A stretch of DNA of 64,000 bases, taken from the NCBI RefSeq assembly GCF_003337215.1, contig NZ_QPIG01000001.1, positions 186,001 through 250,000 of the forward strand. The letters are read 5' to 3'. The notes under the pieces were generated by a model. That model had not been told where the DNA came from, did no database searches, and was given only the letters and a program-made list of their open reading frames with translations. This stretch comes from Oceanihabitans sediminis. GTDB lineage: Bacteria; Bacteroidota; Bacteroidia; Flavobacteriales; Flavobacteriaceae. The position numbers were made by a program, and so were the translations under genes. How positions within the stretch are numbered: the stretch's first letter is position 1; every line of letters starts with the position of its first letter. Below are positions 3,450 to 39,181 of this stretch, piece by piece.

Positions 3450-3457
3450 CAAAGGTA
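3450..3457 (-). promoter_or_regulatory. Bacteroidota -7 promoter element for the aminotransferase-DAHP synthase-rsgA operon
   Basis: On the minus strand this reads TACCTTTG, an exact match to the TAnnTTTG -7 consensus of Bacteroidota. The aminotransferase ATG lies about 31 bp downstream. No clear TTG -33 element is seen at 19-21 bp, so strength is uncertain. Confidence 0.5.
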
Positions 3458-4566: not shown

Positions 4567-4655
4567 CTTTTACAAAGCTTCATCAAAGTAAATATCTAAT
4601 TTCGAAAGAATATAAAAAGCGGTATTATTTTTTTAAAAGAATTAATTTTTTAATC

Positions 4656-5402: not shown

Positions 5403-5451
5403 TTTGTTTATTCTAAAAACGTATTTATTCATATTAAACTCTTCCTTTCTA

Positions 5452-6546: not shown

Positions 6547-6666
6547 TAAATTTAGTTAGATTGTAAAAATAGCATAATATTTAAATAATACAGATGCATC
6601 TAGTTTAATCTCACCCTCTTTTACAGGAAAAAACCAAAAAACAATATAGAATCCATATAATTTTAC

Positions 6667-6674
6667 TAATTTTG
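6667..6674 (+). promoter_or_regulatory. -7 promoter element for the metK transcript
   Basis: TAATTTTG is an exact TAnnTTTG match. Transcription would start at about 6680, just before the first paired strand of the riboswitch at 6689, leaving a leader of about 175 nt ahead of metK. No TTG is seen at the ideal -33 spacing. Confidence 0.55.
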
Positions 6675-6684
6675 CAGTTCAATT

Positions 6685-6785
6685 ATTAAGAGGAAAAATT
6701 TGTCTGATTGCAACCTCTATGTTTTTCAATACAGAAAAACAGATTTCCAAGTTACTTGGAGATTAAAAAATGCTAAAGCAGTAAC
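6685..6785 (+). promoter_or_regulatory. SAM-II-family riboswitch, long-loop variant, upstream of metK
   Basis: P1 is AGAGG (6689-6693) paired with CCTCT (6714-6718). The loop between them carries TTTG...GATTGCAA, like the SAM-II loop with GAUUU and UUGCAA. After two inserted perfect hairpins (GTTTTTC/GAAAAAC at 6721-6740; TCCAAG/CTTGGA at 6746-6760) comes GATTAAAAAATGCTAAAGCA (6761-6780). This resembles the SAM-II 3' segment with GCUAAAG, which lines the ligand pocket. SAM-II RNAs are known from alphaproteobacteria and Bacteroidota and control SAM and methionine genes; a long-loop subclass has been described from comparative genomics. Placement ahead of SAM synthetase fits feedback control. 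The pseudoknot pairing was not fully resolved by eye. Confidence 0.72.
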
Positions 6786-6856
6786 TCATCTACTTCTCTA
6801 GCGGCGCGCAATCTTATTATTTTTCTGCAATATAACAGTTTAAAAAACAATTATTT

Positions 6857-10490: not shown

Positions 10491-11495
10491 TTATGCAATA
10501 AAGCCATTTTCTCTTGCATGCTGTATAGCTTGTTCACTAGTTTCAATCATTAAAGCTGGTGTGGTTTTATTTTTTTCAAGCAAGCATTTTACTCTAAGTA
10601 GTTTCTTTTCATGCTTAACATTTCGTAAATAAATAGCTTTTATCCTTCCAGGAAATTGTTGTGCTACTTCTAAATAAATATCTGCATCCTGCTCTGCACT
10701 ATCTCCAATTAAAATAAAAGGTAATTCAGGGTATGTATTTAGTAAATCAATAATTTCCTTTTGCTTTTGAGGCTTTTCAGCTTCCGTTTTTCGCTTCAAA
10801 ATATCTTTAAAACTTCTTAATAAAATTGGTCCTTTCGGGAAATCATTCTGCCTTAAAAACAATTCTAAGTATCGGTATAAATTCCACGGACTATTACTTA
10901 CATAGAAAATCGGATTTACATTTTCTCCAGACTTCCCTCGATGCAATAAATGATAAAATGCTGCTGCACCCTCTAATGGCAGACGCATTTTTGCAGATTT
11001 AAAAAGTGTATTATAAAGCAATCGCCATTTAAGAGTTGAAACCACCCCGGTATGCAAAATGGTATCATCAATATCGCTAACAACTCCAAAATTTGCTGTA
11101 GAACTTGGTATTAAAATTTCAGCAGGAAAACGATTTCTGTTTTGTATGCTTCGTTTTATTCTATCGTCCTTATAAGAAACTTCGCAAGCAAGCCAACCTT
11201 CTTCATTTGCCATCGCTTTCAATCCTTTCAAGTCTGCTTTCACTTTAAAATAACCATGATTATCACTTTTGGTACGTAAAACCGTTCCATCTGGTAATTG
11301 TATAGAAATTCCAGCGTTTTTCACCTCATCACTTTCCATTCGCTTCCAACTATTGACTAGCAAACTAAAGAAACCCTGCTTTTCTAAATCAATTGATTCG
11401 TCCTCTAGAGCCCTTCCTCGTAAATAGAAATGCGTATCGGTTCCGTAACTTTGAAATGCAATAATTTGAACAGGATCTCTTCTAAATAAAGACAT
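10491..11495 (-). CDS. App1-like phosphatidate phosphatase (DUF2183 family)
   Basis: A 334-residue protein with the App1 catalytic domain. The central motif DIDDTILHTG (residues about 138-147) is the DxDxT signature of HAD-type phosphatases. VSNSPWNLY and GPILLR follow, as does the late acidic motif LIGDSAEQD. In yeast, App1 dephosphorylates phosphatidic acid; the bacterial members are assumed to act on phospholipid head groups but their substrate is not established. No signal peptide is present, so it should be cytoplasmic or peripheral. Upstream is the terminator of hppA, so it probably has its own promoter. Confidence 0.87.
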   Translation of the reverse strand: MSLFRRDPVQIIAFQSYGTDTHFYLRGRALEDESIDLEKQGFFSLLVNSWKRMESDEVKNAGISIQLPDGTVLRTKSDNHGYFKVKADLKGLKAMANEEGWLACEVSYKDDRIKRSIQNRNRFPAEILIPSSTANFGVVSDIDDTILHTGVVSTLKWRLLYNTLFKSAKMRLPLEGAAAFYHLLHRGKSGENVNPIFYVSNSPWNLYRYLELFLRQNDFPKGPILLRSFKDILKRKTEAEKPQKQKEIIDLLNTYPELPFILIGDSAEQDADIYLEVAQQFPGRIKAIYLRNVKHEKKLLRVKCLLEKNKTTPALMIETSEQAIQHARENGFIA

Positions 11496-11523
11496 AAATC
11501 ATGAATGTTTTAAAAAAGTAAAA

Positions 11524-11553
11524 TAACAAAAAACCACGCATAAAGCGTGGTTT
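11524..11553 (-). terminator. Terminator after hppA
   Basis: AAACCACGC (11531-11539) and GCGTGGTTT (11545-11553) form a 9-bp stem; on the minus strand it is followed by a T-rich tract. It lies 24 bp past the hppA stop. Confidence 0.85.
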
Positions 11554-11576
11554 CAATCTATAAATATATTAGCTTA

Positions 11577-14003
11577 TTATTCTTTTTCTAAAACGCTAAC
11601 TGTAACATTATCTCCAAGCTCTTTCACTTTTCTTTTTACTTCTTCAAAAGAACCTTTAAAAGTTTCTTCTTTTACATTTTCAATTCCGTTCGTTATGGTA
11701 GTAGTTTTTACAGTTGCTTTGGCTGAGCCATCTGTATATTTTTCAATAGCCGCTTTTTTAATGACTTGCGTATTTCCATCTTGAACAACTTTTTCAATAC
11801 TCACTTCATTTTCAACAGTCATAGCATCATTAGCATGTCCGCCAAGTATTGGAGCAACTACCAAACCAATTAAACAAGTAAGTTTGATTAAAATATTCAT
11901 AGAAGGTCCTGAAGTATCCTTAAAAGGATCTCCAACAGTATCCCCTGTAACAGCAGCCTTATGCGCTTCACTTCCTTTGTAAGTCATTTTACCATCTATC
12001 TCCACTCCTGCTTCAAAAGACTTCTTAGCATTGTCCCAAGCGCCTCCTGCGTTGTTTTGAAAGATTGCCCAAAGAACACCACTCACGGTAACTCCAGCCA
12101 TATATCCTCCTAACATTTCAGCAATTGCTAAATTATCCATTCCGAACAACATCGGAACAAAGGCAATTACCAAAGGAAAACCAATAGTCAATAAACCTGG
12201 TAGCATCATTTCTCTTAGTGAAGCTTCGGTAGAAATTGCCACACATTTATCGTATTCAGGCTTTCCGGTTCCTTCCATAATTCCAGGAATATCTCTAAAC
12301 TGACGACGCACCTCTTGCACCATTTCCATAGCTGCTTTTCCTACAGCATTCATTGCTAAAGCAGAAAATACCACAGGCACCATTCCACCAACAAAAAGCA
12401 TAGCTAAAACAGGTGCTTTAAAAATGTTAATTCCGTCAATTCCTGTAAAAGTTACATAAGCAGCAAAAAGCGCCAAAGAAGTTAATGCTGCAGAAGCAAT
12501 TGCAAAACCTTTTCCGGTGGCAGCAGTAGTATTTCCAACAGAGTCTAAAATATCTGTTCTCTCTCTTACAATAGGATCTTGCTCACTCATTTCGGCAATA
12601 CCACCAGCATTATCGGCAATAGGCCCAAAGGCATCAATTGCTAACTGCATTGCTGTAGTTGCCATCATAGCAGAAGCCGCTAAAGCCACACCATAAAAAC
12701 CCGCTAAGGCATAAGATGCCCAAATTGCACCAGCAAATAATAACACAGAAGGAAAGGTAGAGATCATTCCCGTAGCTAAACCTGCAATAATATTAGTTCC
12801 AGCTCCAGTACTAGACTGTTGTACAATTTTTAATATCGGCTTTTTACCTAATCCTGTATAGTATTCGGTAATAGAAGAAATAACAGCACCAACAAATAAA
12901 CCAACTAAAGTAGCATAGAAAACTCGCATAGAAGAAATATCCTGCAAGCCTTCACCAAAGAAATTCATTTTCATTGTTTCTGGCAACATCCAAGTTACCA
13001 ATGCGAAACACGAAATTGCCACTAGAGCAATAGAAACCCAGTTCCCTAGGTTTAAAGCTCCCATTACCTGATTTTCTTTAGCATCGTTGCTTTTTATTTT
13101 TACTAACATGGTTCCGATTACAGAAATAATAATTCCAGCTCCGGCAATAGCCATTGGTAGTAAAATTGGACCAATTCCTCCAAATGCTTCACCAATATTA
13201 CCACCCATATCTTTAATCACATAGTTTCCTAAAACCATTGCAGCTAAAACAGTTGCCACATAAGAGCCAAATAAATCAGCTCCCATTCCCGCAACATCTC
13301 CAACATTATCCCCAACATTATCAGCAATAGTAGCTGGGTTTCTTGGGTCATCTTCCGGAATACCCGCTTCAACTTTACCAACTAAATCGGCTCCTACATC
13401 GGCAGCTTTGGTATAAATACCTCCACCAACTCTAGCGAATAAAGCTATAGACTCTGCTCCTAATGAAAATCCTGCTAAAGTTTCTAAAACAATAGTCATG
13501 TCCATAGTGTTTGTCCAAACACCACCCATGAAGAAATGAAAGAATATAATAAAGAAAGTAGTCAATCCTAATACTGCTAAACCAGCAACACCAAGTCCCA
13601 TTACCGTTCCGCCACCAAAAGAAATTTTTAATGCATTTGGTAAACTAGATTTTGCCGCTTGTGTAGTTCTAACATTTGTTTTGGTTGCTATTTTCATTCC
13701 GATGTTTCCTGCAAATGCTGAAAAAACAGCACCAAAAATAAAAGCAATAACAATTAACCAATGTGTAGTAGGCACAACGAAAGAAACTATTGCTAGCAAT
13801 ACACTTACTATTAAAACAAAAACTGCTAATAATCTGTATTCTGCTTTTAAGAAAGCTAATGCACCTTCATAGATATGGTCTGAAATTTCCTTCATTTTGC
13901 CATCTCCAGCATCCTGTTTCATAACCCATTTTTGTTTAATCGTCATATAGATTAAACCTAAAATTGCCAATACGATTGGCATGTAAATCATTATTGATTC
14001 CAT
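11577..14003 (-). CDS. hppA: Membrane pyrophosphatase, K+-dependent type (Na+ and/or H+ pump)
   Basis: An 808-residue polytopic ion-pumping pyrophosphatase with about 16 membrane helices. The catalytic loop [11 protein letters not shown] with downstream [19 protein letters not shown] binds Mg-pyrophosphate, and a second acidic loop has [13 protein letters not shown]. The segment [10 protein letters not shown] (about residue 490) has Ala where K+-independent enzymes have Lys, so K+ dependence is expected. Many Bacteroidota homologues pump Na+, but the ion is not certain here. The last ~75 residues (from about 731) are a charged extension beyond the final helix, not part of the usual core. The soluble pyrophosphatase gene lies upstream. 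Confidence 0.95.
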
Positions 14004-14165
14004 ATTGTTTTTGTAGTTTGGTTAGTTTTAATGAATGCTAATGTAATAAAATCAATCAGAAGTAAAAAATCTTTTAAATTTGATAATTTATTAACAATAT
14101 AAAAGGGATTTTATTAATTTTAAAGCTATATGTTTTAGAATACAAAAACCTCTAACACCTATAAA

Positions 14166-14173
14166 CAAAGGTA
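14166..14173 (-). promoter_or_regulatory. -7 promoter element for hppA
   Basis: The minus strand reads TACCTTTG, exact TAnnTTTG. It would give a 5' leader of about 155 nt. The terminator of ppa lies just upstream, so hppA seems to be transcribed independently. No clear -33 TTG. Confidence 0.45.
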
Positions 14174-14196
14174 ACAGCAACCGAAACCACATAAAA

Positions 14197-14229
14197 TAAA
14201 AAAGCCTTTCATTTGAAAATGAAAGGCTT
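14197..14229 (-). terminator. Terminator after ppa
   Basis: AAGCCTTTCATTT and AAATGAAAGGCTT form a long stem; the minus strand continues with six T. It separates ppa from hppA. Confidence 0.85.
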
Positions 14230-14250
14230 AACTATAAATATATCTACTAA

Positions 14251-14778
14251 TTAGATTGTGAAATCTCCGTTAGTTTTGTGCTCGCTATTTTCATAACGAT
14301 CTACACATTTATTTAAAATGTCATAAGCTTCAGCAGCGTTACCCCATCCACCGATATCTACTTTTTTCTTTTCTAAATCTTTATACACTTGGAAGAAATG
14401 TGTGATTTCTTTAATTCTGTGTGGATTTAAATCATCAATATCATTGTAGATATTCCAAATTGGGTCTGTTACTGGAACACAAATTATTTTTTCGTCTGGT
14501 CCTTTTTCATCTGCCATATGGAAAACACCAATTGGTTTTACTTCCATAACACACATTGGAAAAGTTGGCTCTGTTCCTAATACTAAAACATCTAGTGGAT
14601 CTCCATCTAATGCTAAAGTTTCAGGAATAAATCCGTAATCTCCTGGATACATCATAGAGGAGAATAACATTCTATCAAAACGAATTTTATTTAATTCGAA
14701 ATCGTATTCGTACTTGTTTCTACTTCCTTTTGGTATTTCGATTAATACATCAAAAGTTTCTTTTCCTTTTGGACTCAT
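14251..14778 (-). CDS. ppa: Soluble inorganic pyrophosphatase
   Basis: A 175-residue family I inorganic pyrophosphatase that hydrolyses pyrophosphate in the cytoplasm and pulls biosynthetic reactions forward. The signature DGDPLDVLVLG (metal-binding DxDPxD) and the early KGSRNKYEYD substrate-binding segment are intact; length is normal. It lies directly upstream of the membrane pyrophosphatase gene but has a full promoter and its own terminator, so the two competing fates of pyrophosphate (heat versus ion gradient) are neighbours yet separately transcribed. Confidence 0.96.
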   Translation of the reverse strand: MSPKGKETFDVLIEIPKGSRNKYEYDFELNKIRFDRMLFSSMMYPGDYGFIPETLALDGDPLDVLVLGTEPTFPMCVMEVKPIGVFHMADEKGPDEKIICVPVTDPIWNIYNDIDDLNPHRIKEITHFFQVYKDLEKKKVDIGGWGNAAEAYDILNKCVDRYENSEHKTNGDFTI

Positions 14779-14848
14779 ATTATATATATTATTAATATTT
14801 CCGCTTAAGCGAAAACAGTTTTATTAATTATCTAAAAATTTCGGTTTG

Positions 14849-14878
14849 CAAAAGTACGGAAACTATTAACTTTTACAA
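14849..14878 (-). promoter_or_regulatory. Promoter of ppa
   Basis: On the minus strand TTG (14876-14878 complement, within CTTTG), 19 bp, then TACTTTTG (14849-14856): a complete Bacteroidota promoter. Start of transcription near 14842, about 64 bp before the ATG. The leader contains the palindrome CGCTTAAGCG. Confidence 0.8.
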
Positions 14879-14926
14879 AGAAAACACTATCTTAGTTATC
14901 TATTAACGCCTAAATATCTTGCTTTT

Positions 14927-15328
14927 ATGTCCTTTTTTAGCAAAATCCTTATTGTATCCTCTCTGTTTTTAACTTTTTCAGGCTATTCTCAAAATCTAGA
15001 ATGTTGTTCTTCTAAAGAAGAAATTGAAGAAACGCTTTCTGGATATTGGAAAATAAAAGACGACTCCTCTAAAAGTCTCTACCATTTTTGGTTTGAAAAC
15101 GGAAGAGGAAATGTTGAAAATGTAGAAACAACCGAATCCTTAGGGAAATATTTATCCGTAAAAGGTTCTCATTCCTACTTATATATCAAGGAGGAAGATG
15201 CTTCTTTTGCATTAGAATATATCTTCAAATTTGGAAATTGGATTTCTACCATTAAAAAACTAGATAAACACAATCTTTCTTTAGAAACCAACGGAGAAAT
15301 TACAGATTACTATAAGATAACTTACTAG
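14927..15328 (+). CDS. Small secreted protein of unknown function
   Basis: A 133-residue protein with signal peptide MSFFSKILIVSSLFLTFSGYSQ. The mature part begins NLECCSSKEEIEETLSGYWKI and then has alternating strands (SLYHFWFENGRGNVENV, YLYIKEEDASFALEY, LSLETNGEITDYYKI). The 'GYWKI' opening with strands resembling a small lipocalin-like barrel is suggestive only; no family assigned. The two adjacent Cys near the mature N-terminus are not in a lipobox context. Its last 4 bp overlap the end of the convergent DUF5686 gene. Confidence 0.75.
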   Translation: MSFFSKILIVSSLFLTFSGYSQNLECCSSKEEIEETLSGYWKIKDDSSKSLYHFWFENGRGNVENVETTESLGKYLSVKGSHSYLYIKEEDASFALEYIFKFGNWISTIKKLDKHNLSLETNGEITDYYKITY

Positions 15329-17841
15329 AAGTTAAACCCAAAGCTTCCTGTTACACCAAACTTTCTAGCATCTGGATAATTAGCTTCATTTAAATAATTT
15401 CCTCTAAAGTTAAAGTCGATTCTAAAGACTTTAAAAATATTACCTACACCTACACTATACTCATAATACACCTTATTATTTGGTGAAATTAATGGTATAT
15501 TATAAGGGTTTGAAGTAGTGCTTAAAGCAATATTACTATCGGAAAGTTCTCCCCAAGCAGCTCTAAAACCAATAATCTCTCTCCAATTTAATTTACGTAA
15601 AAACGGAATTCTTGAAAAGAATCTTCCATTAAAATTATGTTCTAAATGCATAGACGCATAAGTATCTGTAACAAACTCATAATAGTCCAGCTGCGCGAAA
15701 CTATTATAAACAGAGAAGTAAGATTGGTTTCCAGGTATAACACTTAACAATCCTAAAGGTACATCTCCAAAGGTTTTACCGGCTTCTATGGTAGTATAAA
15801 GTCTTCCTAAACCTCCAACAGACCATGGTTGCATATAAGAGAATTGAAGTTTGGTATAATCAAAATCACTTTTAAACATTCCTTGACTTCCACGAGTTAC
15901 TTGCGCAAACAGTCTAGCAAAATCGTCGTTTGCTTCATGACGCTCAACCCCATATCCTGTCATTTTTCTTTTTGGAAAATAGGAAACAGAGAAAGCAGAT
16001 TCAAATTGTTTGATTTCTGATTCTATTCCTGTTGGCGTATTATAGTCTAAACTAAAAGTTGGTGAAGCAGACTCTAAGGTTCTATAGTTTCCACTTAGTT
16101 TAAAAACCACATTCTTAATAGGCTCCAACTCTACTGCAAGAGTAGTTATATTGATGTCTGTAAGCTTATCATTGGTTCCAGTTCCTATTAAAGAGGAAGA
16201 AGCTAAACTTCTACCCAAAACATCTGTAGAGGTTGTTAAACTAGCTCCTATCTGTTCGATATCTCTACGGTTTCCACCAGAAATAATAAATCGGTTTTTC
16301 TTATTAAGCAGTACTTTTCCTGAAATACCGTACTTAAATTTATTGTCTTTAAATCCGTATGCTGTAAACCCTTCTACTCGCCAAAGATCATTTTGTCCAA
16401 AGTAGGTTCTTCCTCCTACTCTTAGACGCATTCCTTCCACCTCATTAAACCCGAAAGTAGAAAATATTGGTCCGTAATCTAAATTCCATTCTGGAAACTC
16501 AATATATCCGGAAGCCAAAATACTTCCCATATTATATAATCGCTTAAACTTTTTAACGGTTTTAAGTGTATCTAACATTTTGTAAACACCTTTTTCGTCT
16601 TTACTTAATGCTTCCATTCGGTTTTCTTCCCAGAAACTATCTTCCCGATTGTAAATATCTTTGTCGTAGTTATAAACTTCTTCACTATAGAATTTCTCGT
16701 CTTTCGGATTATCGAAAACGTAATTATCATATAATGTAGTACGCTTACCGTAAACACCACGAGATTTTTCTTTTTTGTTAAAAGAGAAATCAGACATGAA
16801 GTAATCTCTTTTCAGTAATAATAAAGAATCGCTTAAAACATCAAACTCCTGCTCTATATAAATTTCTTTTACCCAGTTTATATTGGCACTTTTAGATGCC
16901 TGCATATTAATTTCCTTAATAGCATAAGTGGTATCTGCTACCCAAAAATCTCCTTTAAAGGTTAGTTCATTTTTACGTCTTGGGTAATAAATAATATTAT
17001 AACACCATTTATTGTCTCTATAAGTACTATCAGCTAAAACATAGTTATAGGTATGAATTCCTGTTTTAGAAATCGGACTCACAAAACTCTTATCGAAAAA
17101 CTTCAGATAATTATCATAAATATCAAACTCTGAATACAAATCGTTTACAAAATCAATAATAATTTGATTATCACTGAATCCGGAATTTTTATTCCCTAGT
17201 AAATCAACTTTTTCTTTTTTAAGCGTATTATCTCCGTAAACTTTAGAAACTGCCTCATTAATAAAAATTGGCAAATAGGTTTTTCCGGTAACTCGAGAAG
17301 TATCTACTTCATTAAAAACAAACTCCATTCCTTTGAAAAGTTTACTCTTTATAAGCGCACTATCAATAGTGTTTAAATCGAATTCTACTTTTTCGTATTT
17401 ATCGTATTCGTATTGATTGAATTGTCTTAACCCATTTTTACGTTTGTGTGCCCAAACCTTTTTAAGAATAGCTATTGCTGGGTTTTCAGATTCTTTTTTA
17501 GACTGCTTTCCTGTTACAATAAAAACTTCGTCTAAAGAACCTGTTTCTTCTTTAAGAATAAATTTAAGATTATAGTTAACTCGCTTTTCTAACGGAATAT
17601 CTAAAGTAGCAAAGCCTATAAAAGAAACAATAAGCGCATCCCAAGTATCTTTAGACTCTAAATAAAAAGTTCCGTTTTCGTCTGTTATTGTTCCTTCAGA
17701 AGAACCTTTAAAAATCACATTTGCGAATGCAACCGGCTCATCAAATTCGTCAAACACTTTACCACTAACCTTTGTTTGTGATAAAACGGACATAATTCCG
17801 AAGAAAAAAAATACTATACTTAGTTTATAATTCATACCCAT
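15325..17841 (-). CDS. DUF5686 outer membrane protein with N-terminal carboxypeptidase-regulatory-like domain
   Basis: From the chosen start the protein is 838 residues. A signal peptide (MNYKLSIVFFFFGIMSVLSQ) leads into a CarboxypepD_reg-like beta-sandwich (VSGKVFDEFDEPVAFANVIF...GTITDENGTF). A long DUF5686 region follows and ends in what look like outer membrane beta-strands (last residues GSFGFNF with terminal Phe). Such proteins are TonB-receptor-like in layout but lack a plug, and their role is unknown. An upstream in-frame ATG at 17868 lies inside the pdhB terminator hairpin, so one of the two Met codons right after the T-run (17841 or 17835) is the better start. It converges with the gene at 14927. 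Confidence 0.87.
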   Translation of the reverse strand: MGMNYKLSIVFFFFGIMSVLSQTKVSGKVFDEFDEPVAFANVIFKGSSEGTITDENGTFYLESKDTWDALIVSFIGFATLDIPLEKRVNYNLKFILKEETGSLDEVFIVTGKQSKKESENPAIAILKKVWAHKRKNGLRQFNQYEYDKYEKVEFDLNTIDSALIKSKLFKGMEFVFNEVDTSRVTGKTYLPIFINEAVSKVYGDNTLKKEKVDLLGNKNSGFSDNQIIIDFVNDLYSEFDIYDNYLKFFDKSFVSPISKTGIHTYNYVLADSTYRDNKWCYNIIYYPRRKNELTFKGDFWVADTTYAIKEINMQASKSANINWVKEIYIEQEFDVLSDSLLLLKRDYFMSDFSFNKKEKSRGVYGKRTTLYDNYVFDNPKDEKFYSEEVYNYDKDIYNREDSFWEENRMEALSKDEKGVYKMLDTLKTVKKFKRLYNMGSILASGYIEFPEWNLDYGPIFSTFGFNEVEGMRLRVGGRTYFGQNDLWRVEGFTAYGFKDNKFKYGISGKVLLNKKNRFIISGGNRRDIEQIGASLTTSTDVLGRSLASSSLIGTGTNDKLTDINITTLAVELEPIKNVVFKLSGNYRTLESASPTFSLDYNTPTGIESEIKQFESAFSVSYFPKRKMTGYGVERHEANDDFARLFAQVTRGSQGMFKSDFDYTKLQFSYMQPWSVGGLGRLYTTIEAGKTFGDVPLGLLSVIPGNQSYFSVYNSFAQLDYYEFVTDTYASMHLEHNFNGRFFSRIPFLRKLNWREIIGFRAAWGELSDSNIALSTTSNPYNIPLISPNNKVYYEYSVGVGNIFKVFRIDFNFRGNYLNEANYPDARKFGVTGSFGFNF

Positions 17842-17880
17842 AAAAAAAAAGACTTCATTAACAATCAAGCCAATGAAGTC
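17842..17880 (-). terminator. pdhB terminator whose T-run abuts the DUF5686 start codon
   Basis: GACTTCATT (17851-17859) and AATGAAGTC (17872-17880) form a 9-bp stem with 12-nt loop. On the minus strand nine T follow immediately and then ATGGGTATG begins the DUF5686 protein. Confidence 0.85.
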
Positions 17881-17908
17881 TAATAATAATAAAAATATTA
17901 GTTTTATT

Positions 17909-18886
17909 TTATTTATACATCACTTTTTTGACTGCGTTAATAACATCGGTACTATTTGGTAACCATTCTGCTAGTAAAACTGGCGAATAAGGTGCAGGTG
18001 TATCTGCAGTATTAATTTTAATAATTGGAGCATCTAAATAATCGAATGCTTGCGATTGTACTTGATATGTAATTTCTGTAGCAACATTTCCAAATGGCCA
18101 TGCTTCTTCTAAAATTACTAATCTGTTTGTTTTCTTAACAGAATTTAAAATGGTCTCGTGATCCATTGGTCTTACTGTACGTAAATCGATAATCTCACAA
18201 GAAATTCCTTCTTTTTCTAATTCTTCTGCTGCTTTGTAAGCTTCTTTAATAATCTTACCAAAAGAAACGATAGTTACATCTGTACCTTCTCTTTTTATAT
18301 CTGCAACACCTATTGGAATCACGTATTCTCCTTCAGGAACTTCTCCTTTGTCCCCGTACATTTGCTCACTTTCCATAAAGATAACTGGATCATCATCACG
18401 AATAGCAGCTTTCAATAAACCTTTAGCATCGTAAGGATTAGAAGGAACAATCACTTTTAAACCTGGTGTATTAGCATACCAGCTTTCAAAAGCTTGCGAG
18501 TGTGTTGCTGCTAATTGTCCTGCAGAACCTGTTGGCCCACGAAAAACAATAGGACATTTAAACTGCCCTCCAGACATTTGTCTAATCTTAGCTGCGTTGT
18601 TTATAATTTGATCAATCCCAACTAATGAGAAGTTAAATGTCATAAATTCCACAATAGGTCTGTTTCCTGTCATAGTAGATCCTACTGCTATACCTGCAAA
18701 ACCAAGCTCTGCAATTGGAGTATCTATTACACGTTTCGGACCAAATTCATCCAACATTCCTTTACTAGCCTTATATGCTCCGTTATATTCAGCAACTTCT
18801 TCTCCCATTAAATAAATGCTCTCATCTCTGCGCATTTCTTCACTCATTGCTTCACAAATAGCTTCTCTAAATTGTATTGTTTTCAT
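17909..18886 (-). CDS. pdhB: Pyruvate dehydrogenase E1 component, beta subunit
   Basis: A 325-residue transketolase-like beta subunit of the heterotetrameric E1 of pyruvate dehydrogenase. Recognisable parts are the N-terminal MGEEVAEYNGAYKAS, the RVIDTPIAELGFAG segment, FRGPTGSAGQLAATHSQ and the C-terminal PAPYSP. With the alpha subunit and thiamine diphosphate it decarboxylates pyruvate and loads lipoyl-E2. The alpha, E2 and E3 genes are not adjacent. A branched-chain 2-oxo acid E1 beta is a less likely alternative, given the close match to PdhB. It is divergent from etfB. Confidence 0.92.
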   Translation of the reverse strand: MKTIQFREAICEAMSEEMRRDESIYLMGEEVAEYNGAYKASKGMLDEFGPKRVIDTPIAELGFAGIAVGSTMTGNRPIVEFMTFNFSLVGIDQIINNAAKIRQMSGGQFKCPIVFRGPTGSAGQLAATHSQAFESWYANTPGLKVIVPSNPYDAKGLLKAAIRDDDPVIFMESEQMYGDKGEVPEGEYVIPIGVADIKREGTDVTIVSFGKIIKEAYKAAEELEKEGISCEIIDLRTVRPMDHETILNSVKKTNRLVILEEAWPFGNVATEITYQVQSQAFDYLDAPIIKINTADTPAPYSPVLLAEWLPNSTDVINAVKKVMYK

Positions 18887-33607: not shown

Positions 33608-33628
33608 GTACTGAAGACGGGACTTGAA
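33608..33628. repeat. attL: 21-bp copy of the tRNA-Leu 3' end
   Basis: Begins GTACTGAAGACGGG and ends ACTTGAA; identical to 39097-39117. It covers the acceptor 3' strand and part of the T arm of tRNA-Leu. Sequence identity ends at 33628 (next bases ACAT versus CCCG). Confidence 0.88.
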
Positions 33629-33837
33629 ACATACTATTTATTTCATTTTACTTAAATGCATATTATCTACAAAAACCAAACAAACAAACAACATTAGCCA
33701 TATATAAAGGATTAACAGAAATCTAAACTAATTGAACGTAATTTAAAACAAAACATATTTTACGTACAAATTACGTACAAATATAGATTTTAATGCTTAA
33801 ATTTGAGTATTCAATTACCTATTAAAACTATAAAATT
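33629..33837. other. Left-end non-coding region of the element (att arm and integrase promoter)
   Basis: About 209 bp of AT-rich sequence between attL and the integrase ATG. Besides the paired ACGTACAAA repeats at 33761-33781 I see no gene and no clear TAnnTTTG box. Confidence 0.5.
33761..33781. repeat. Left pair of ACGTACAAA direct repeats, candidate integrase arm sites
   Basis: ACGTACAAA at 33762-33770 and 33773-33781, 11 bp apart (one helical turn). The same pair in the same orientation occurs at the right end (39022-39041), 20 of 21 bases identical over the block. Confidence 0.7.
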
Positions 33838-35169
33838 ATGGCAGTAGTATATTTTGTGTATCGTTCGATTAAAGAAAAAGCAAATCTAAAGGTTAGACTT
33901 CAGTTAAATGATAAGAACAAACAATTTGAAGCAAGTACACAAATACATACTTCTAAAACTTATTGGAATATTGACCGTAAAAAGAAAAGAAATTTATCTG
34001 CATCGTTAAAGAACGAAAATATAGAGATTAACAAAAAGTTAGATAGTCTTCAAAGTTTCATATTAAAGAAGTATGAAAAAGAATTACCTCAACCAACAGA
34101 AAAGAATTGGTTAAAAAATACTGTTGCCAAATATTACACACCTACCGAAGAAAATAAAAAACAAAGTGAACTTATAACAGATGCCATTCAATATATTATA
34201 GATAATGCAGATACAAGAAAAAACTCAAAAGGCAGTTTAGGATTATCTAAAAGCAGAATTAATTCCTATATATCACTAAAGAATATTTTAATTGAATATC
34301 AAAAAAACGAACGTTTTCTAATCAAAGACGTTAATATAAAATTTGCTAAAGACTTTCTAAAGTACCTACTTCAGACTAAAGGTTATCAAATTAGTTATGC
34401 CACTAAAAAAATTGCAGATTTAAAAACTGTTTGCTTTGATGCAGAAACCAACGGAATTCCTGTTCACTTTCAACTCAAAAAAATTGATAGCACTAAACCA
34501 ACTAACAATAATATTATTTATTTAAACGAAGCAGAGTTAAAACAAATAGAGAAAACAGAACTACCTACTGAAGCATTAAACAATGCTAAAAAATGGTTAT
34601 TATTAGGGTGCAATATTGGACAAAGAGGAAGTGACTTACTTAACATAAATGAAAGTAATTTTGTCAATAGAAACGGTTTAGACGTAATCGAACTCAAACA
34701 AAAGAAAACTGACAAATTTGTAACTATACCAGTATTAGAAACAACAAAAGCAATTTTAGAAACTGGACTACCTTACAAAATATCAATTCAAAAATTTAAC
34801 AAACAGATTAAAGAGGTATGCAGAATAGCAAAAATAGATAACGTAATAAAAGGAAGTATTATTAAAGTTATAGAAAATGAAAAAGGCAAAAAAGAAAATA
34901 GAAAAATAGAGGGCAACTACAAAAAATGGAAACTTATTGGCTCACACGTTTGCAGACGTTCGTTTGCATCTAATCTATACGGAACACTACCTACACCTTT
35001 AATAATGAGTATAACTGCACACAGTACCGAGAAAATGCTTTTAAATTATATTGGAAAACAAGGTTTAGACTACGCCCAACAGATAGCAGACTTCTATACT
35101 CTACAAGCACAAAAGCAACAAAAAGAAAGCAATCTTACAGTTGTAAAGAGGGCATCTAATGAAAACTAA
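33838..35169 (+). CDS. Tyrosine recombinase / site-specific integrase of the element
   Basis: A 443-residue integrase of the Bacteroidota phage/ICE type. Residues about 1-100 are an arm-type DNA-binding domain (VYFVYRSIKEKANLKVRLQL, SKTYWNID), about 105-215 a SAM-like core-binding domain, and about 225-425 the catalytic domain. Catalytic residues visible are Arg263 (IGQRGSDLL), Lys near 293 (KTDKFVTIP), His370-x-x-Arg373 (SHVCRRSFA), His395 (TAHSTEKM) and Tyr404 (LLNYIG), so it looks active. It reads inward from attL and should catalyse integration into, and excision from, tRNA-Leu. A hairpin terminator lies 135 bp downstream. Confidence 0.95.
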   Translation: MAVVYFVYRSIKEKANLKVRLQLNDKNKQFEASTQIHTSKTYWNIDRKKKRNLSASLKNENIEINKKLDSLQSFILKKYEKELPQPTEKNWLKNTVAKYYTPTEENKKQSELITDAIQYIIDNADTRKNSKGSLGLSKSRINSYISLKNILIEYQKNERFLIKDVNIKFAKDFLKYLLQTKGYQISYATKKIADLKTVCFDAETNGIPVHFQLKKIDSTKPTNNNIIYLNEAELKQIEKTELPTEALNNAKKWLLLGCNIGQRGSDLLNINESNFVNRNGLDVIELKQKKTDKFVTIPVLETTKAILETGLPYKISIQKFNKQIKEVCRIAKIDNVIKGSIIKVIENEKGKKENRKIEGNYKKWKLIGSHVCRRSFASNLYGTLPTPLIMSITAHSTEKMLLNYIGKQGLDYAQQIADFYTLQAQKQQKESNLTVVKRASNEN

Positions 35170-35303
35170 TTAACATATTTAGTGTTGATAAAAACATAAC
35201 TTACTGATTATCAAGAAGTACGGAAATCTGATAATAACCTAATGACAACTATTTTTTCGTTTTAAACTATATTATAGTAAATTAGCATCAGTAAATAAAT
35301 AAC

Positions 35304-35336
35304 AAAAGAGCATTACATTGAAGTAACACTCTTTTA
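35304..35336 (+). terminator. Probable terminator after the integrase
   Basis: AAAGAG-CA-TTAC and GTAA-CA-CTCTTT pair with a symmetric CA/CA internal loop, followed by TTTATAT. The T-tract is weak. Confidence 0.5.
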
Positions 35337-35404
35337 TATCTGTTATCAACTTTTAAAACTTTTCGAAGGGTTTTTTACATAGTTGTAATACAAATGTAAT
35401 AATA

Positions 35405-35437
35405 AATATTAGAATAGATATAATTGAATCTAATATT
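35405..35437. promoter_or_regulatory. 9-bp inverted repeat ahead of the HTH gene, candidate operator
   Basis: AATATTAGA and TCTAATATT are exact reverse complements separated by 15 bp, ending 67 bp before the HTH gene. Spacing and position would suit a dimeric regulator or excisionase; unproven. Confidence 0.4.
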
Positions 35438-35504
35438 TCTACATTTTTAACAGATATAAAAATCTGTAACTTCTCTGTACTGCTCATAAAAAACCATTTT
35501 AATT

Positions 35505-35786
35505 ATGAGCAAACACATTCAATTCATTCAGGTAACCCCTGAACAACTTCAAAACGCAATTATTGAGGGCGTAAAATCTCAATTACAAGAACTCAAAGAA
35601 CACTTTCAACCAAAGCAACCAAACGAGTATTTAACACGCCAAGAGGTTGCCGAAATGCTCTCTGTTGACCTTTCCACTATCCATAATTGGAAGACAAAAG
35701 GAATACTCACTGCATACCAGATCGGTGGGCGTGTCTTCTATCTACGTTCAGACGTTGAAAATGCAATTATTAAACTTAAAAACTAA
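35505..35786 (+). CDS. Helix-turn-helix DNA-binding protein, excisionase-like
   Basis: A 93-residue protein with a coiled N-terminal part and a MerR/excisionase-type winged HTH (HTH_17) at residues about 42-93: EYLTRQEVAEMLSVDLSTIHNWKTKGILTAY..GGRVFYLRSDVENAI. Such proteins accompany integrases in Bacteroidota elements and direct excision or act as regulators. The next gene starts within 7 bp, implying cotranscription with the unknown protein at 35793. Confidence 0.9.
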   Translation: MSKHIQFIQVTPEQLQNAIIEGVKSQLQELKEHFQPKQPNEYLTRQEVAEMLSVDLSTIHNWKTKGILTAYQIGGRVFYLRSDVENAIIKLKN

Positions 35787-35792
35787 TTGTAT

Positions 35793-36182
35793 ATGAAAAC
35801 GAAAATTCCAACACCGATAGTACACGTTTACAAAGAGTTTAATATTGGAAAATACAAAACTGTAAGACATTTTGAACTTTTTGAATGTAGCAAATACCCT
35901 ATCTTATCAAAGCATATTAACATAAGTGCAAATAGAAATTATGCTTTATCAATGCCAACTTATTGGCTAAAGATAAAAGAGGAAAAAATATGGACAGATT
36001 ACATTACTGGACTATTTAAAACTAAAATTCCTAATGTATATAAAGGTGATGCAGACAGAAAAAAACACTTATTACTTTTTAAGTTTTCTGACAACGGAGA
36101 AACACTGAATGTATATTACTTTCAGAACTACTACACAAACGATTTAAGACACGTTTTAAAACACATCAATACAGAACATTAA
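35793..36182 (+). CDS. Element-encoded protein of unknown function
   Basis: A 129-residue protein (MKTKIPTPIVHVYKEFNIGKY...), no signal peptide, rich in Lys, Tyr and His. No family recognised. It lies 6 bp after the HTH gene and is followed by a terminator at 36192, so it forms a two-gene unit with it. A TTG codon 6 bp upstream is in frame, but the ATG is the natural start. The fixed position directly behind an excisionase-like gene suggests a role in element maintenance; this is inference. Confidence 0.75.
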   Translation: MKTKIPTPIVHVYKEFNIGKYKTVRHFELFECSKYPILSKHINISANRNYALSMPTYWLKIKEEKIWTDYITGLFKTKIPNVYKGDADRKKHLLLFKFSDNGETLNVYYFQNYYTNDLRHVLKHINTEH

Positions 36183-36191
36183 AAATTAAAT

Positions 36192-36216
36192 AGAGGGCGT
36201 AAAAACCCTCTTTTTA
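36192..36216 (+). terminator. Terminator after the HTH-unknown pair
   Basis: AGAGGG (36192-36197) and CCCTCT (36206-36211) with an 8-nt loop, then TTTTT. Confidence 0.8.
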
Positions 36217-36236
36217 ATCTCTCATTGTTGAGGTAT

Positions 36237-37190
36237 ATGGTAACTCATATTCTCAACCCAGACCCCCTATGCATATTTGTGATTGATTACCTTAAATTAA
36301 AAGTAACTAATAATGACCTAATAAAACACTTGTGGTCACACCCCCTCATATACTTTTACTCCGAAAAAGAAACACTACTTAATGACAAAGAAACAATACA
36401 CACACAAACAACAAAACAATATAAAGGCATTTATTTTTATATAGAAAATAAAATATTATACATAAAATTCAAACCTCATTATTACTTTAACAACAATCTA
36501 CATAACGCAAATGACTTCCACATAATTAACTGTATAAGAATACTAAAAGAGTTTATTAATACATTCCAAGTAAACCCGTATGACCTATACATAGTTAATA
36601 TTGAGTTTGGAATAAATGTTATAATACCTAAAAGTATAATTTGCATCAAAGACTTACTTGCTCAAATGATTTACCACAACCAAAACGAATTTTACCCTGA
36701 TAAATCACACGCATTCTCAAGAAGAAGTACAACCATAAGGCAAAACGGAAAAATCAACCTTTACAAAGTATTAAAGTGTTATGCAAAAGGCATACAATAC
36801 CCACAATACACTGATATAAATACATTGCGTTATGAAATAAAAAGTTGTCGCAAAAACTACATTAACAATCTCGGCATTTACAACCTCAACGACCTACTAA
36901 ACAAAGAAATATACAATAAATTAGCAGACGTATTAATTAAAGAGTTTGAGCAAATATTAATCATTGATGATAATGCCAAACCTATATTAAGTGACATAAA
37001 GTTAAAACATCACAAAAAAAGATTGTGCCAAATACACTGGAGAAAACTGACTAACAAGAGCAAAAATACTTTTAGAAAAAATATAACTGCGTATAACGAT
37101 GCATTAGACACGTGTGAAACACATCTAAAAAAGGAATTAACAAACTTAATAATAAAGAAATTAGACGAGTTAAAAAGTGTGCCGTTTTAA
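36237..37190 (+). CDS. Candidate replication-initiation protein of the element
   Basis: A 317-residue protein. It has no signal peptide and is very rich in Asn, Ile, Lys and Tyr with many ATA codons, unlike the host genes. The stretch YFNNNLHNANDFHIINCIRILKEF, followed by the motif NIEFGINVIIP, then FSRRSTTIRQNGKINLYKVLKCYAKG and LRYEIKSCRKNYINNLGIYNLNDL, follows the order I associate with gene II-like phage/plasmid replication proteins of Bacteroidota. An AT-rich repeat-bearing gap follows. Replication is an inference; no catalytic residue can be proven. An in-frame TTG at 36225 is a weaker start. Confidence 0.55.
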   Translation: MVTHILNPDPLCIFVIDYLKLKVTNNDLIKHLWSHPLIYFYSEKETLLNDKETIHTQTTKQYKGIYFYIENKILYIKFKPHYYFNNNLHNANDFHIINCIRILKEFINTFQVNPYDLYIVNIEFGINVIIPKSIICIKDLLAQMIYHNQNEFYPDKSHAFSRRSTTIRQNGKINLYKVLKCYAKGIQYPQYTDINTLRYEIKSCRKNYINNLGIYNLNDLLNKEIYNKLADVLIKEFEQILIIDDNAKPILSDIKLKHHKKRLCQIHWRKLTNKSKNTFRKNITAYNDALDTCETHLKKELTNLIIKKLDELKSVPF

Positions 37191-37191
37191 C

Positions 37192-37229
37192 ACTATATAA
37201 GGTTTAAATAAGCACACCTTATAGTTTTA
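37192..37229 (+). terminator. Hairpin after the Rep-like gene
   Basis: ACTATATAAGGT pairs with ACCTTATAGT (two bases bulged), followed by TTTTATG. It begins 1 bp past the stop codon. Confidence 0.6.
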
Positions 37230-37678
37230 TGTAAACTGATAAGGGAAACCTAAATAACACCCCCTACACCCACTATTTGAAGTTTACAAAGACATCTACA
37301 TATAAACGCACACTATAATAGAAATTGTCAAAAAGTTTGGTATAAATTATAATAGTTAAAAAACTAAACTTTTCAAGAATACATTGACGGTATATAAGTT
37401 TTATCTATAACAAACACATAACTAATAGCAATTACAATTTTCCATATATTAGTTAACTGATTTTATACTGATTATTAATAATTGATTTGTATTGATTTAA
37501 TTAATTAATCTTTTATTAATTTTATAAGAAACCTAAACACCTAAAGCAAAGTTTATATTAGTAAGAAAAAGTAAGATTACACTCGAAAATACTCGCCAAA
37601 ACCAAGTAAAAATAGTGAGTATTAGTGAGTAATAAGTTTTGAATAATCAAACTTTTTTCAAATTAACAAATATACATT
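37230..37678. other. AT-rich repeat region, candidate replication origin of the element
   Basis: About 450 bp without a gene. AAAAGTTTGGT (37331-37341) faces ACTAAACTTTT (37363-37373), an 11-bp inverted repeat with one mismatch. A near-pure A/T stretch runs about 37430-37540. Then ATTACACTCGAAAATACTC (37576-37594) faces GAGTATTAGTGAGTAAT (37617-37633), an imperfect inverted array of ACTC/GAGT units. AT-rich DNA next to iteron-like repeats, behind a Rep-like gene, is the layout of a replication origin, but function is not shown. Confidence 0.4.
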
Positions 37679-37831
37679 ATGTGTTTATTCAAGAAAAAAG
37701 ACAAGAGGCATAATAACTATTATGATAATACTGCAAATATGTATAAAGGGCATTTTTCAGTAGCATTATTTTATATAGTTATATTTATAATAGTTTATGC
37801 CATACACACTCTTTACAACTACTTATTTTAA
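37679..37831 (+). CDS. 50-residue single-span membrane protein of the element
   Basis: An ATG at 37679 opens 50 codons to a TAA at 37829-37831. The basic N-terminus (MCLFKKKDKRHNNYY) is followed by one hydrophobic helix (about residues 26-42, FSVALFYIVIFIIVYAI) and a short tail. The stop codon shares its last base with the ATG of the next gene (TAATG), the same coupling seen at fabD-lspA, which supports translation. By the positive-inside rule the N-terminus is cytoplasmic. No family recognised; size and single span recall small phage membrane proteins, but nothing more. Confidence 0.6.
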   Translation: MCLFKKKDKRHNNYYDNTANMYKGHFSVALFYIVIFIIVYAIHTLYNYLF

Positions 37832-38121
37832 TGAATATAGAACTACTTCACAATATATGCAAAGATGCAACACGCAAAGCATTTAACGAGTTTAAAAGAC
37901 AAGTTGAGGTTGAACTATTCCCTTTCAATAATTCATTAAAAGAGAACCTACAAAAACAGATGCTTGAACAAATTAGAATGCAAGTAACTAAAGAGTATAT
38001 GAGTAAAAACAATTTGTCAATACAACAATTAAAAGTATTAGATGAAGTTATAAATCAATATAGCAACATTGCATTAAAGACTTCAGACAACTATTCTAAA
38101 AAAATAAACCCCTCTATTTAA
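37831..38121 (+). CDS. Element-encoded small helical protein, unknown
   Basis: A 96-residue, predicted all-helical protein (MNIELLHNICKDATRKAFNEFKRQVEVELF...). Heptad-like hydrophobic spacing suggests oligomerisation. It starts on the last base of the stop codon of the 50-residue membrane protein, so the two are probably made together and may act together. No family recognised. A hairpin at 38108-38137 overlaps its end. Confidence 0.65.
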   Translation: MNIELLHNICKDATRKAFNEFKRQVEVELFPFNNSLKENLQKQMLEQIRMQVTKEYMSKNNLSIQQLKVLDEVINQYSNIALKTSDNYSKKINPSI

Positions 38122-38137
38122 GAAGGGATTTTTATTA
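38108..38137. terminator. Hairpin between converging element genes
   Basis: CCCCTCT and AGAAGGG pair with one mismatch, flanked by A-run on the left and TTTTTA on the right, so it may act in both directions. Confidence 0.55.
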
Positions 38138-38159
38138 TAATTATCTATTACAATTAATA

Positions 38160-38702
38160 CTACCAGTCATCGTCAGTATCTAAAGCAACACCACTAACAT
38201 AATTATAAAATGATAGTGATAAATCATTCATTGTTTTTTCCAAACTTGGTACTGCATCTGTGTAAGACCTCTTAACACTACCATCTTTTTTCCTATAAAA
38301 AGCATCATAAGAGTACAATGTTTTTTGCCCTCCATCAAGATAAAATTGACCAATTATATAGTCAAACCTATACCTACCATCTTTAAAAGATATTTCTAAA
38401 GTATAATCCATATTCATATAATGAGTATAACCTACTGATTTATGCCACCAAGCACTACTTTTATAACCGTTAAGCCTAATCTTCTGACCCTTGAATTTTG
38501 CTTTTAATACTTCTTCAGGATTTTTATAAGACTCCTTAACCCAGTCTAATGCTTTTTGATAAATTTCTGAAGCAGACATTCCCTCTACCTCAACAACTAT
38601 TGGCTCTACCCCATCTGGCGTTAATTTTAATTGAGGTATTTCTTGTCCGAATGTGATAGTTGTAAAAACTACTGAAAGTGCGAGTAAAATAATTTTTTTC
38701 AT
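38160..38702 (-). CDS. Exported DUF4468-like protein carried by the element
   Basis: A 180-residue protein with signal peptide MKKIILLALSVVFTTITFGQ. The mature part has VVEVEGMSASEIYQKALDWVKESYKNPEEV, YTLEISFKDGRYRFDYIIGQF and a C-terminal helix, resembling the TBP-like DUF4468 domain common in Bacteroidota exported proteins. It is the only gene of the element on the minus strand and the only one with a signal peptide, so it is probably cargo rather than part of mobility. It ends at the shared hairpin with the 96-residue gene. Function unknown. Confidence 0.75.
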   Translation of the reverse strand: MKKIILLALSVVFTTITFGQEIPQLKLTPDGVEPIVVEVEGMSASEIYQKALDWVKESYKNPEEVLKAKFKGQKIRLNGYKSSAWWHKSVGYTHYMNMDYTLEISFKDGRYRFDYIIGQFYLDGGQKTLYSYDAFYRKKDGSVKRSYTDAVPSLEKTMNDLSLSFYNYVSGVALDTDDDW

Positions 38703-38766
38703 TTTTTTGGTTTAAAATATTGATATTAACTAATTTACAAACATATTAAATTTAACACTAAATATA

Positions 38767-39006
38767 ATGACCTTATATGAATTTAATAAATTAGATATGA
38801 ACGCCCGAATGGAAGTAACGAACCAAAAAGGCGTTTTTTTAGATAACTACATTACAGATAAAGAAAGGATAAACCTTTACGCAATAGATATGTTTTTCGT
38901 TGAGGTTGTATATACTCCTAAAAAGAATTTTATACTTGAAGTTAGAAGTTTTAAAACTGGACAAAGTTTAGACAAGTATTCAAAAGATTTTAGTGATGGT
39001 TTTTAA
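38767..39006 (+). CDS. Small element-encoded cytoplasmic protein, unknown
   Basis: A 79-residue protein, MTLYEFNKLDMNARMEVTNQKGVFLDNY...FVEVVYTPKKNFILEVRSFKTG. It appears to be a compact alpha/beta fold: one helix, then three or four strands. I recall similar short proteins (start MTLYEFNxLD) scattered in Flavobacteriaceae genomes, without a function. It is the last gene before the right end and is divergent from the DUF4468 gene. Confidence 0.65.
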   Translation: MTLYEFNKLDMNARMEVTNQKGVFLDNYITDKERINLYAIDMFFVEVVYTPKKNFILEVRSFKTGQSLDKYSKDFSDGF

Positions 39007-39020
39007 CTTAAAAATCAAAC

Positions 39021-39041
39021 TACGTACAAATGACGTACAAA
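39021..39041. repeat. Right pair of ACGTACAAA direct repeats, candidate integrase arm sites
   Basis: ACGTACAAA at 39022-39030 and 39033-39041, 11 bp apart; matches the left block at 33761-33781 in 20 of 21 positions and in the same orientation. It lies 56 bp inside attR. Confidence 0.7.
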
Positions 39042-39055
39042 AAAAAGGACATAAA

Positions 39056-39091
39056 ACGAAAAAGCCTTGAAAATCAAACGATTAACAAGGC
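39056..39091 (-). terminator. Replacement terminator for tRNA-Leu supplied by the element
   Basis: On the minus strand GCCTTG, TT, AATC, GTTT loop, GATT, TT, CAAGGC, then TTTTTCG. The 6-bp outer and 4-bp inner stems share a symmetric internal loop. It lies 7 bp past the tRNA-Leu 3' end and inside the element. Confidence 0.75.
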
Positions 39092-39096
39092 AATTT

Positions 39097-39117
39097 GTAC
39101 TGAAGACGGGACTTGAA
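39097..39117. repeat. attR: 21-bp repeat inside the tRNA-Leu 3' end
   Basis: Identical to 33608-33628. It includes the discriminator, the acceptor 3' strand and part of the T arm of the functional tRNA-Leu gene. Integration therefore leaves the tRNA intact. Confidence 0.88.
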
Positions 39118-39181
39118 CCCGTACGTCCTAATGGACATTGGATTTTAAGTCCAACGTGTCTACCAATTCCACCACTTCAGC
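39098..39181 (-). tRNA. tRNA-Leu (anticodon TAA), integration target
   Basis: On the minus strand acceptor GCTGAAG pairs with CTTCAGT (first pair G-U), the anticodon loop CTTAAAA gives anticodon TAA, a long variable arm (TGTCC..GGACG) marks class II, and the T arm is ACGGG-TTCAAGT-CCCGT. Discriminator A at 39098; CCA is not encoded. It follows tRNA-Gly by 26 bp on the same transcript. Confidence 0.95.

Follow-up and report, generated by a model that had tools for sequence, protein, structure and literature searches.

A compact integrative element at tRNA-Leu(UAA) in Oceanihabitans sediminis, with a Rep_trans-like predicted initiator, as a possible minimal member of a phage satellite family in Bacteroidota

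The element described here lies in a 64,000-nucleotide stretch of the Oceanihabitans sediminis genome (contig NZ_QPIG01000001.1 of assembly GCF_003337215.1, positions 186,001 to 250,000), referred to below as the window, where it occupies positions 33608-39117 (5,510 bp). It is flanked by exact 21-bp direct repeats, attL at 33608-33628 and attR at 39097-39117, which stretch to 24 bp if one mismatch is allowed, and the right copy forms the 3' end of an intact tRNA-Leu(UAA) gene (39097-39181, reverse strand; TAA in the tRNA call), the integration target, as an earlier note made from the sequence had described. On the one strand searched, the 21-mer is found in the window at the two repeat positions only. 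The G+C content of the element is 28.0%, versus 33.0% in the remainder of the window. Inside each end, tandem copies of the 9-mer ACGTACAAA stand 11 bp apart, at 33762 and 33773 on the left (33762-33781) and at 39022 and 39033 on the right (39022-39041), with one further copy in the 64 kb, at 6498. These repeats resemble the arm sites of integrases and may act as such; several relatives have repeats at the corresponding places of both ends, but with different words.

The tyrosine integrase (Int; 443 aa, 33838-35169, forward strand) matches PF13102 and PHROG_216, with PF00589 below the cut-off, and its catalytic boxes can be read in the sequence as GQRGSD (R263), KKTDKF, HVCR (H370/R373), AHST (H395), and NYIG (Y404). 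The excisionase (Xis), an HTH_17 protein of 93 aa (35505-35786, forward strand), is recognized by PF12728 and by the excisionase family PHROG_66. The earlier note had named both genes, the first as an integrase with all its catalytic residues and the second as an excisionase-like helix-turn-helix (HTH) gene, and both assignments are borne out.

The rep gene (303 aa; 36279-37190, forward strand) probably starts at the GTG at 36279, since the aligned relatives begin with M(I/V/L)D at this point. Its product has no convincing match in Pfam, NCBIfam, the PHROGs, the PDB sequences, or plasmids, the best family match being PHROG_3533 (E 0.02), and none of the 16 members of the Rep family that were scanned matches the curated Rep_trans model (PF02486/NCBIfam). 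At most three of these members had hits in PHROGs that are unnamed or of the HNH-endonuclease type (E as low as 7e-6), one in a "replication protein" PHROG (E 0.046), and two in Pfam DUF2116 (E 0.001). The structure predicted from a 35-sequence alignment (predicted local distance difference test, pLDDT, 90.9) matches RepDE (4cwe, Z 11.7 over 230 aa, 4.3 A; 4cwc, Z 11.2) and RepSTK1 (4cij, Z 10.8) in the PDB, with the next entry at Z 5.8. Foldseek agrees on 4cij (E 1.7e-4), and the best viral structural match is the inovirus protein G2P (E 1.8e-8).

In RepSTK1, the catalytic tyrosine has a lysine two residues on, and the metal ligands are D9, D116, and E196, as described in PMC4797284. By strand order, these residues (D9, D116, Y179, K181, and E196) pair with D3, E109, Y168, K170, and E186 of Rep, which are invariant in 35 of the 35 aligned sequences, the differences being a Glu for Asp at E109 and a Lys, rather than an Arg, two residues before the tyrosine. 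The predicted model contains the crescent beta-sheet of the Rep_trans fold, together with the tyrosine, the lysine at +2, and the three carboxylate ligands. Rep appears, by its modelled fold, to be of the Rep_trans type, though outside PF02486, and is read as an active nicking initiator of rolling-circle replication (RCR). The Rep-like protein of the earlier note stands by its predicted fold and not by its sequence family, and the suggestion that the element replicates after excision gains support from the same fold and the active-site residues. The host genome contains a single copy of Rep. A distant homologue was recovered by a profile match in a phage collection, in the faecal phage contig MT835707.1 (L097, 5776-6984).

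Seven genomes of the genus, including that of the window, were queried with the tRNA-Leu/tRNA-Gly/mutS side of the site. The site is readable, with a full-length match, in six of them, the seventh (84% complete) yielding short matches only. Two of the readable sites are occupied by related elements, those of the window and of one congener, and the other four (of the five outside the window's own genome) are empty. In the empty sites, kdtA is followed by a small alanine-rich gene and then by the tRNA with a single 21-mer, which is found once in each of the four stretches of approximately 16 kb (one strand searched), and the 0.4-0.6 kb or so between the alanine-rich gene and the tRNA is repeat-rich and free of any element. 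In the occupied congener (genome G352, locus L130), two copies of the 21-mer, 7.65 kb apart, enclose an element related to that of the window, with identities of 67% for Int, 49% for Xis, 48% for p131, 57% for the DUF4468 protein, and 29% over 236 aa for Rep. The fact that rep is the most divergent of these genes suggests that it has been exchanged.

The 40 bp to the left of attL in L130 agree with the sequence that adjoins the tRNA on its left side where the site is empty. The left flank of the window's attL is less clean. Its match is to a terminator-like repeat at a greater distance from the tRNA (74% over 126 bp, in L128), where the empty sites and the joined flanks of the window show no close alignment. 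The presence or absence of an element at the tRNA-Leu(UAA) locus within the genus is clear, and the comparison shows integration at the 3' end of this gene. The same 5.5 kb in all relatives, which the earlier note had named as evidence against an integrative element, is not what the four empty sites display, and empty and occupied sites together support its proposal.

The earlier note had recommended a search for the gene order in relatives, which revealed a large family that it had not foreseen. Rep was found in 28 of the 349 genomes sampled from the bacterial family (E <= 1e-3), while the Rep profile (E <= 1e-5) matched 28 of 395 genomes sampled from the class and 13 of 395 from the phylum. 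In the Flavobacteriaceae and Weeksellaceae, the order int-[X]-xis-[p131]-rep-cargo-tRNA is seen at approximately ten tRNA or tmRNA targets, which include tRNA-Leu (three anticodons), Arg, Asn, Asp, Ala, Met, and Cys, as well as tmRNA. Among the 40 related loci with record titles, an integrase lies no more than 6.5 kb upstream in 34, and Xis no more than 900 bp upstream of rep in 37. A direct repeat anchored at the 3' end of a tRNA or tmRNA is present in half of them (20/40), and these elements span 5.0-13.3 kb. The comparison of these sequences shows that the int-xis-rep backbone recurs and that the cargo can be exchanged. The Rep tree places the window in a 30-row clade with support of 97/93, in which there are five bearers of a tape-measure gene, with G245 and L157 outside it. 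Two int-xis-rep modules stand in tandem before a single tmRNA gene in L073 (1496-5414 and 7119-11308), and xis and rep occur without an adjoining integrase in L039 (8472-9820). Beside the latter, a run of genes on the reverse strand (2189-8089), including small membrane proteins and amidase-like and M15-peptidase-like open reading frames (ORFs) recognized by eye, is perhaps a tailless phage.

Between int and xis, many relatives have a gene, X, which varies in kind and which, in one of the ten X proteins scanned (that of L075), is RteC, a protein with a role in CTnDOT. The window element has no X, and this slot holds a long imperfect hairpin (35308-35485; z -5.98 against 200 shuffles). The strongest hairpin falls in an X-less int-xis gap in none of the 19 other delimited elements, and the hairpin was rejected as a candidate replication origin because its position is not conserved among them. 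Shared 13-mers were also discarded as a lead to the origin, given that the sole motif in ten elements stands before int. The motif TGTTCAAAAGTTCA (one mismatch at most) is located just before int in L057, L058, L062-L065, L067, L068, L070, L071, and L073, and also some 55 nt before rep in L063 and L066-L069. It is perhaps a shared operator, and is absent from the window element within one mismatch.

The genome of the window contains a second element of 4.36 kb at tRNA-Leu(CAA) (G000:C11, approximately 417248-421605; L167 2749-7105), which has a 14-bp repeat, arm-type repeats at both ends, and the order int-59 aa-X-xis-p131-like-244 aa, with no match to the RCR Rep.

The remaining genes of the window element are small. 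The beta-rich protein p131 (35793-36182, forward strand), which probably starts at the ATG at 35793, is present in 20 of the 40 related loci. Its predicted model (pLDDT 87) has a best structural match of Z 6.6, within the range of chance, and no function was assigned to it. An ORF of 50 aa from the ORF list (37679-37831, forward strand), with one membrane segment seen by eye, has no homologue among the 19 delimited relatives that were clustered. The p96 gene (37831-38121, forward strand) is common, among these 19 elements, to L059 only. The exported protein of the earlier note (38160-38702, reverse strand; signal peptide by eye) proved to match DUF4468, a recurrent cargo family with a distant homologue in Flavobacterium phage laban6-1, and p79 (38767-39006, forward strand) is a recurrent small protein. 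The family scans of the eight proteins of the element matched no coupling protein or canonical relaxase, and the Pfam and PHROG scans found no primase family, nor any coat or Zot/pI-type assembly ATPase family.

The cargo of the family was surveyed in 19 delimited elements, in which 89 proteins of at least 70 aa remained after the exclusion of the backbone. This cargo includes DUF4468 (4), HTH regulators, Fic, HipA, Gp49-like proteins, RteC, and a Dnd/Pbe-like system. No conjugation family is found among the 25 commonest of the 41 Pfam, 130 PADLOC, and 67 PHROG families. In L061, a DndD/PbeC-like ATPase and its neighbours (11233-18023), inside an 11.6-kb tRNA-Leu(TAG) repeat, are perhaps a phosphorothioate-type defence system.

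Some of the relatives, three of them delimited (G245, L072, and L080), bear single tailed-phage genes, which are of the tape-measure, terminase small subunit (TerS)-like, decoration, and minor tail kinds. Tape-measure matches were obtained in G245 (1244 aa), L072 (998), L080 (653), L081 (640), and L082 (624), and in the IMG/VR contigs L158 and L159, and the contig of L077 ends within the start of a tape-measure gene. The tape-measure proteins of L080, L081, and L082 are full-length, and that of L080 is 55% identical to the one of Cellulophaga phage phiSM over 646 columns, which makes phiSM a candidate type of helper for elements like L080. The L080 element spans 10.5 kb, with a 14-bp repeat as its boundary and a tRNA whose 3' end is truncated. 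In L077, L080, L082, and L085, a protein of approximately 212 aa is encoded downstream of rep, with 31-43% identity (115-227 columns) to gp01 of phiSM and of Flavobacterium phage FCL-2, which stands one or two small genes ahead of the terminase large subunit (TerL). This protein is probably TerS, based on the homology and position of gp01 and on a weak terminase-small PHROG match in L077 (E 2.5e-4). No tape measure was found in L085, in addition to its TerS-like gene. A minor tail protein of L081 is 42.5% identical to that of FCL-2, a decoration protein of L082 has 37% identity, and L077, L081, and L082, which are not delimited, each have a protein that matches just the C-terminal part of a head maturation protease.

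Other relatives point to other types of phage. L072, from Christiangramia, is delimited by a 17-bp tRNA-Leu(TAG) repeat (13.3 kb). It encodes a protein of 736 aa that is homologous to a virion structural protein and has 42% identity to the one in L159, and its 998-aa protein has both virion-structural and tape-measure matches. G245, delimited by a 21-bp tRNA-Arg repeat (14.3 kb), shares p131 (45% identity) and p79 (36%) with the window element. Its 1244-aa protein matches a tape-measure family (PHROG_20660, E 4e-12) and, over 30% of its length, annotated tape measures of Porphyromonas phages, and a 636-aa protein matches hypothetical proteins of Bacteroidota phages. The contigs L158 and L159 were found through Xis and have related int and xis genes, together with a TerS match (E 2e-5) in L158 and a primase-helicase in L159, and one of the small genes in L158 has 55% identity to cargo found in L058, which is closely related to the window element. 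In L157, the tape measure lies upstream of int and belongs perhaps to a neighbouring element.

The TerL, portal, major capsid, sheath, and tube proteins of FCL-2 and phiSM had no match in nine elements or stretches, including that of the window; each query recovered its counterpart in the other phage, more distant versions would escape, and these queries suit L077-L082 and are weak for G245, L072, L158, and L159, which resemble other phage types. The tape-measure elements were also considered as decayed prophages. The long open tape-measure frames in the delimited G245, L072, and L080 speak against this idea, as do the ORF lists of these three, which contain no other ORF of more than 310 aa, except for int, gene X, rep, and, in two of the elements, one virion- or phage-type protein; the protein scans behind this covered part of the proteins of the tape-measure elements.

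Given this, the window element is best read, with somewhat better than even confidence, as a minimal integrative element that depends on a helper and is most likely a phage satellite. The earlier note had raised the satellite as an alternative, and it is supported by the relatives in which tape-measure, TerS-like, and other phage genes occur singly. In the proposed mechanism, Int and Xis would excise the element as a circle upon infection by a tailed helper phage, and Rep would nick this circle and generate concatemers by rolling-circle replication. The terminase of the helper would then package these concatemers into helper particles, and Int would re-integrate the element in the next cell. 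Some of the larger members carry their own versions of individual helper parts (a TerS-like protein, a tape measure, a decoration protein, or a minor tail protein), and the 5.5-kb member of the window would depend on the helper for all the particle parts. Excision and rolling-circle copying are proposed because of the anatomy of the element, and movement by tailed helper phages because part of the family carries tailed-phage parts; for the window copy itself, we infer the phage step. The balance tips barely in favour of a broader reading, a Bacteroidota satellite family with the order int-[X]-xis-[p131]-rep, a Rep_trans-like initiator, rolling-circle products as the packaging substrate, and exchangeable tape-measure and TerS-like modules that come from different types of tailed phage. 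The window element and the 4.4-kb second element of the same genome would be its minimal form, with nothing left beyond the functions of integration, excision, and replication and a handful of small genes.

A number of observations weigh against a phage satellite. The window copy has no recognisable packaging or particle gene, TerS included. The six-row Rep clade nearest to the window (100/100) contains no tape-measure bearer, and of the 20 loci with a tRNA- or tmRNA-anchored repeat, L072 alone has a tape-measure match, in a protein whose best PHROG is "virion structural protein". The Rep of G245 is only distantly related (26% over 202 aa), and its long branch falls outside the clade of the window. 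None of the 50,697 phage and 72,556 plasmid records examined gave a DNA match, and neither Rep nor the window's Int had a hit in pattern scans of IMG/VR, although such scans miss divergent Reps, given that L157, found through Xis, holds a distant Rep. Finally, proteins of the Rep_trans type, to which the MOBT relaxases are related, also serve as relaxases, as described in PMC5704250, and Rep may have a role in transfer. The statement of the earlier note that no relaxase is visible holds for the canonical families and is, for this reason, too strong as it stands.

This last point underlies the reading of the element as an integrative mobilizable element (IME), the main rival and a distinct but minority possibility, in which Rep would be a MOBT-like relaxase and initiator that nicks an oriT on the excised circle, with the circle carried by a co-resident conjugative element of the CTnDOT or integrative and conjugative element (ICE) type. 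The account in PMC5704250 lends it several precedents, as Rep_trans-type proteins fill both roles, relaxase and initiator, in Tn916 and ICEBs1, relaxases related to RCR initiators are present in 118 of the 144 streptococcal IMEs, with 35 of these 118 lacking a coupling protein, and NBU1 likewise targets tRNA-Leu. The streptococcal MOBT/Rep_trans IMEs also combine a tyrosine integrase at a gene 3' end with an RCR-type protein, and the RteC of L075 points in the same direction. NBU1, however, has a MobP relaxase, whereas none of the eight window proteins matches a coupling protein or canonical relaxase, the 25 commonest cargo families are devoid of conjugation genes, and the named matches of the larger relatives include phage-particle genes. 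The host assembly, which is 97% complete, has no match to PF03432, a further point against conjugative transfer, nor to PF04860 (portal) or PF10145 (tape measure, PhageMin_Tail), which counts against the satellite, and therefore no helper of either kind is visibly resident; an infecting phage would fit as the helper.

Two further readings have little probability. The element may be an immobile, domesticated island that retains just the int-xis-rep backbone, which would agree with the single Rep copy of the host, but the backbone ORFs are intact, both 21-bp repeats are exact, and the site in the congeners is either empty or taken by another element, making this very unlikely. The least probable is a satellite or remnant of a filamentous, single-stranded DNA phage, with Rep as a gene-II-like initiator and the small membrane protein as a coat-like protein. 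The viral structural match of Rep to G2P and the membrane segment of the 50-aa ORF are what this reading would expect, but that ORF is without a homologue in the clustered relatives, no Zot/pI ATPase or coat family was matched, and the recognised phage genes of the relatives come from tailed phages.

Known satellites provide a number of parallels for the phage satellite favoured here. The int-xis-rep left part resembles that of the phage-inducible chromosomal islands (PICIs), such as the Staphylococcus aureus pathogenicity islands (SaPIs), whose replication is primase-type. Some PICIs have their own TerS, which is perhaps paralleled in the four relatives with a TerS-like gene, in contrast with the window element, in which none was recognised. 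The window element resembles in size the phage-inducible chromosomal minimalist islands (PICMIs) of the Vibrionaceae, described in PMC10803314 as elements of approximately 6 kb with an integrase, an excision factor, a replication gene, and a few unknown genes, between short direct repeats and with no capsid-remodelling gene. PICMI115 (6.1 kb) is described there as replicating by rolling circle and being packaged as a concatemer, which indicates that an integration, excision, and replication element of this size can suffice for phage-borne movement. Minimal satellites such as PICMI may be without packaging or particle genes. The PICMIs differ in their integration next to fis and their core of int, alpA, and a primase, whereas the window element has the tRNA-Leu(UAA) 3' end, an HTH_17 excisionase, and a Rep_trans-fold initiator. 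A satellite with its own tape measure, as in several relatives, is known in PLE of Vibrio cholerae, with PLE11 building chimeric tails, and putative tmp genes are mentioned in the capsid-forming PICIs (cf-PICIs), according to PMC12987554. The PLEs are approximately 18 kb long, and the window element has no recognisable tail gene. The Charybdis elements, which PMC12324425 places in archaea and reports to have no recognisable replication gene, were rejected as the same system.

Helper-dependent integrative elements as such are already known, and the window element is no new category. The satellite families described, as listed in PMC10803314, are from the Firmicutes, the Gammaproteobacteria, vibrios, and some marine bacteria, and the titles and abstract openings of the open-licence literature on satellites, integrative elements, and tape-measure satellites in the Bacteroidota and Flavobacteriaceae include none that describes the present elements; the proposed satellite family is apparently undescribed. 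If the interpretation is true, a Bacteroidota family with a rolling-circle initiator would add both a phylum and a type of replication to the satellites. The question of the helper is directly testable with culturable hosts and phages, given that the same site is empty, or holds 5.5 kb or 7.7 kb, within a single genus, and that known phages of Cellulophaga and Flavobacterium have counterparts of the tape-measure genes.

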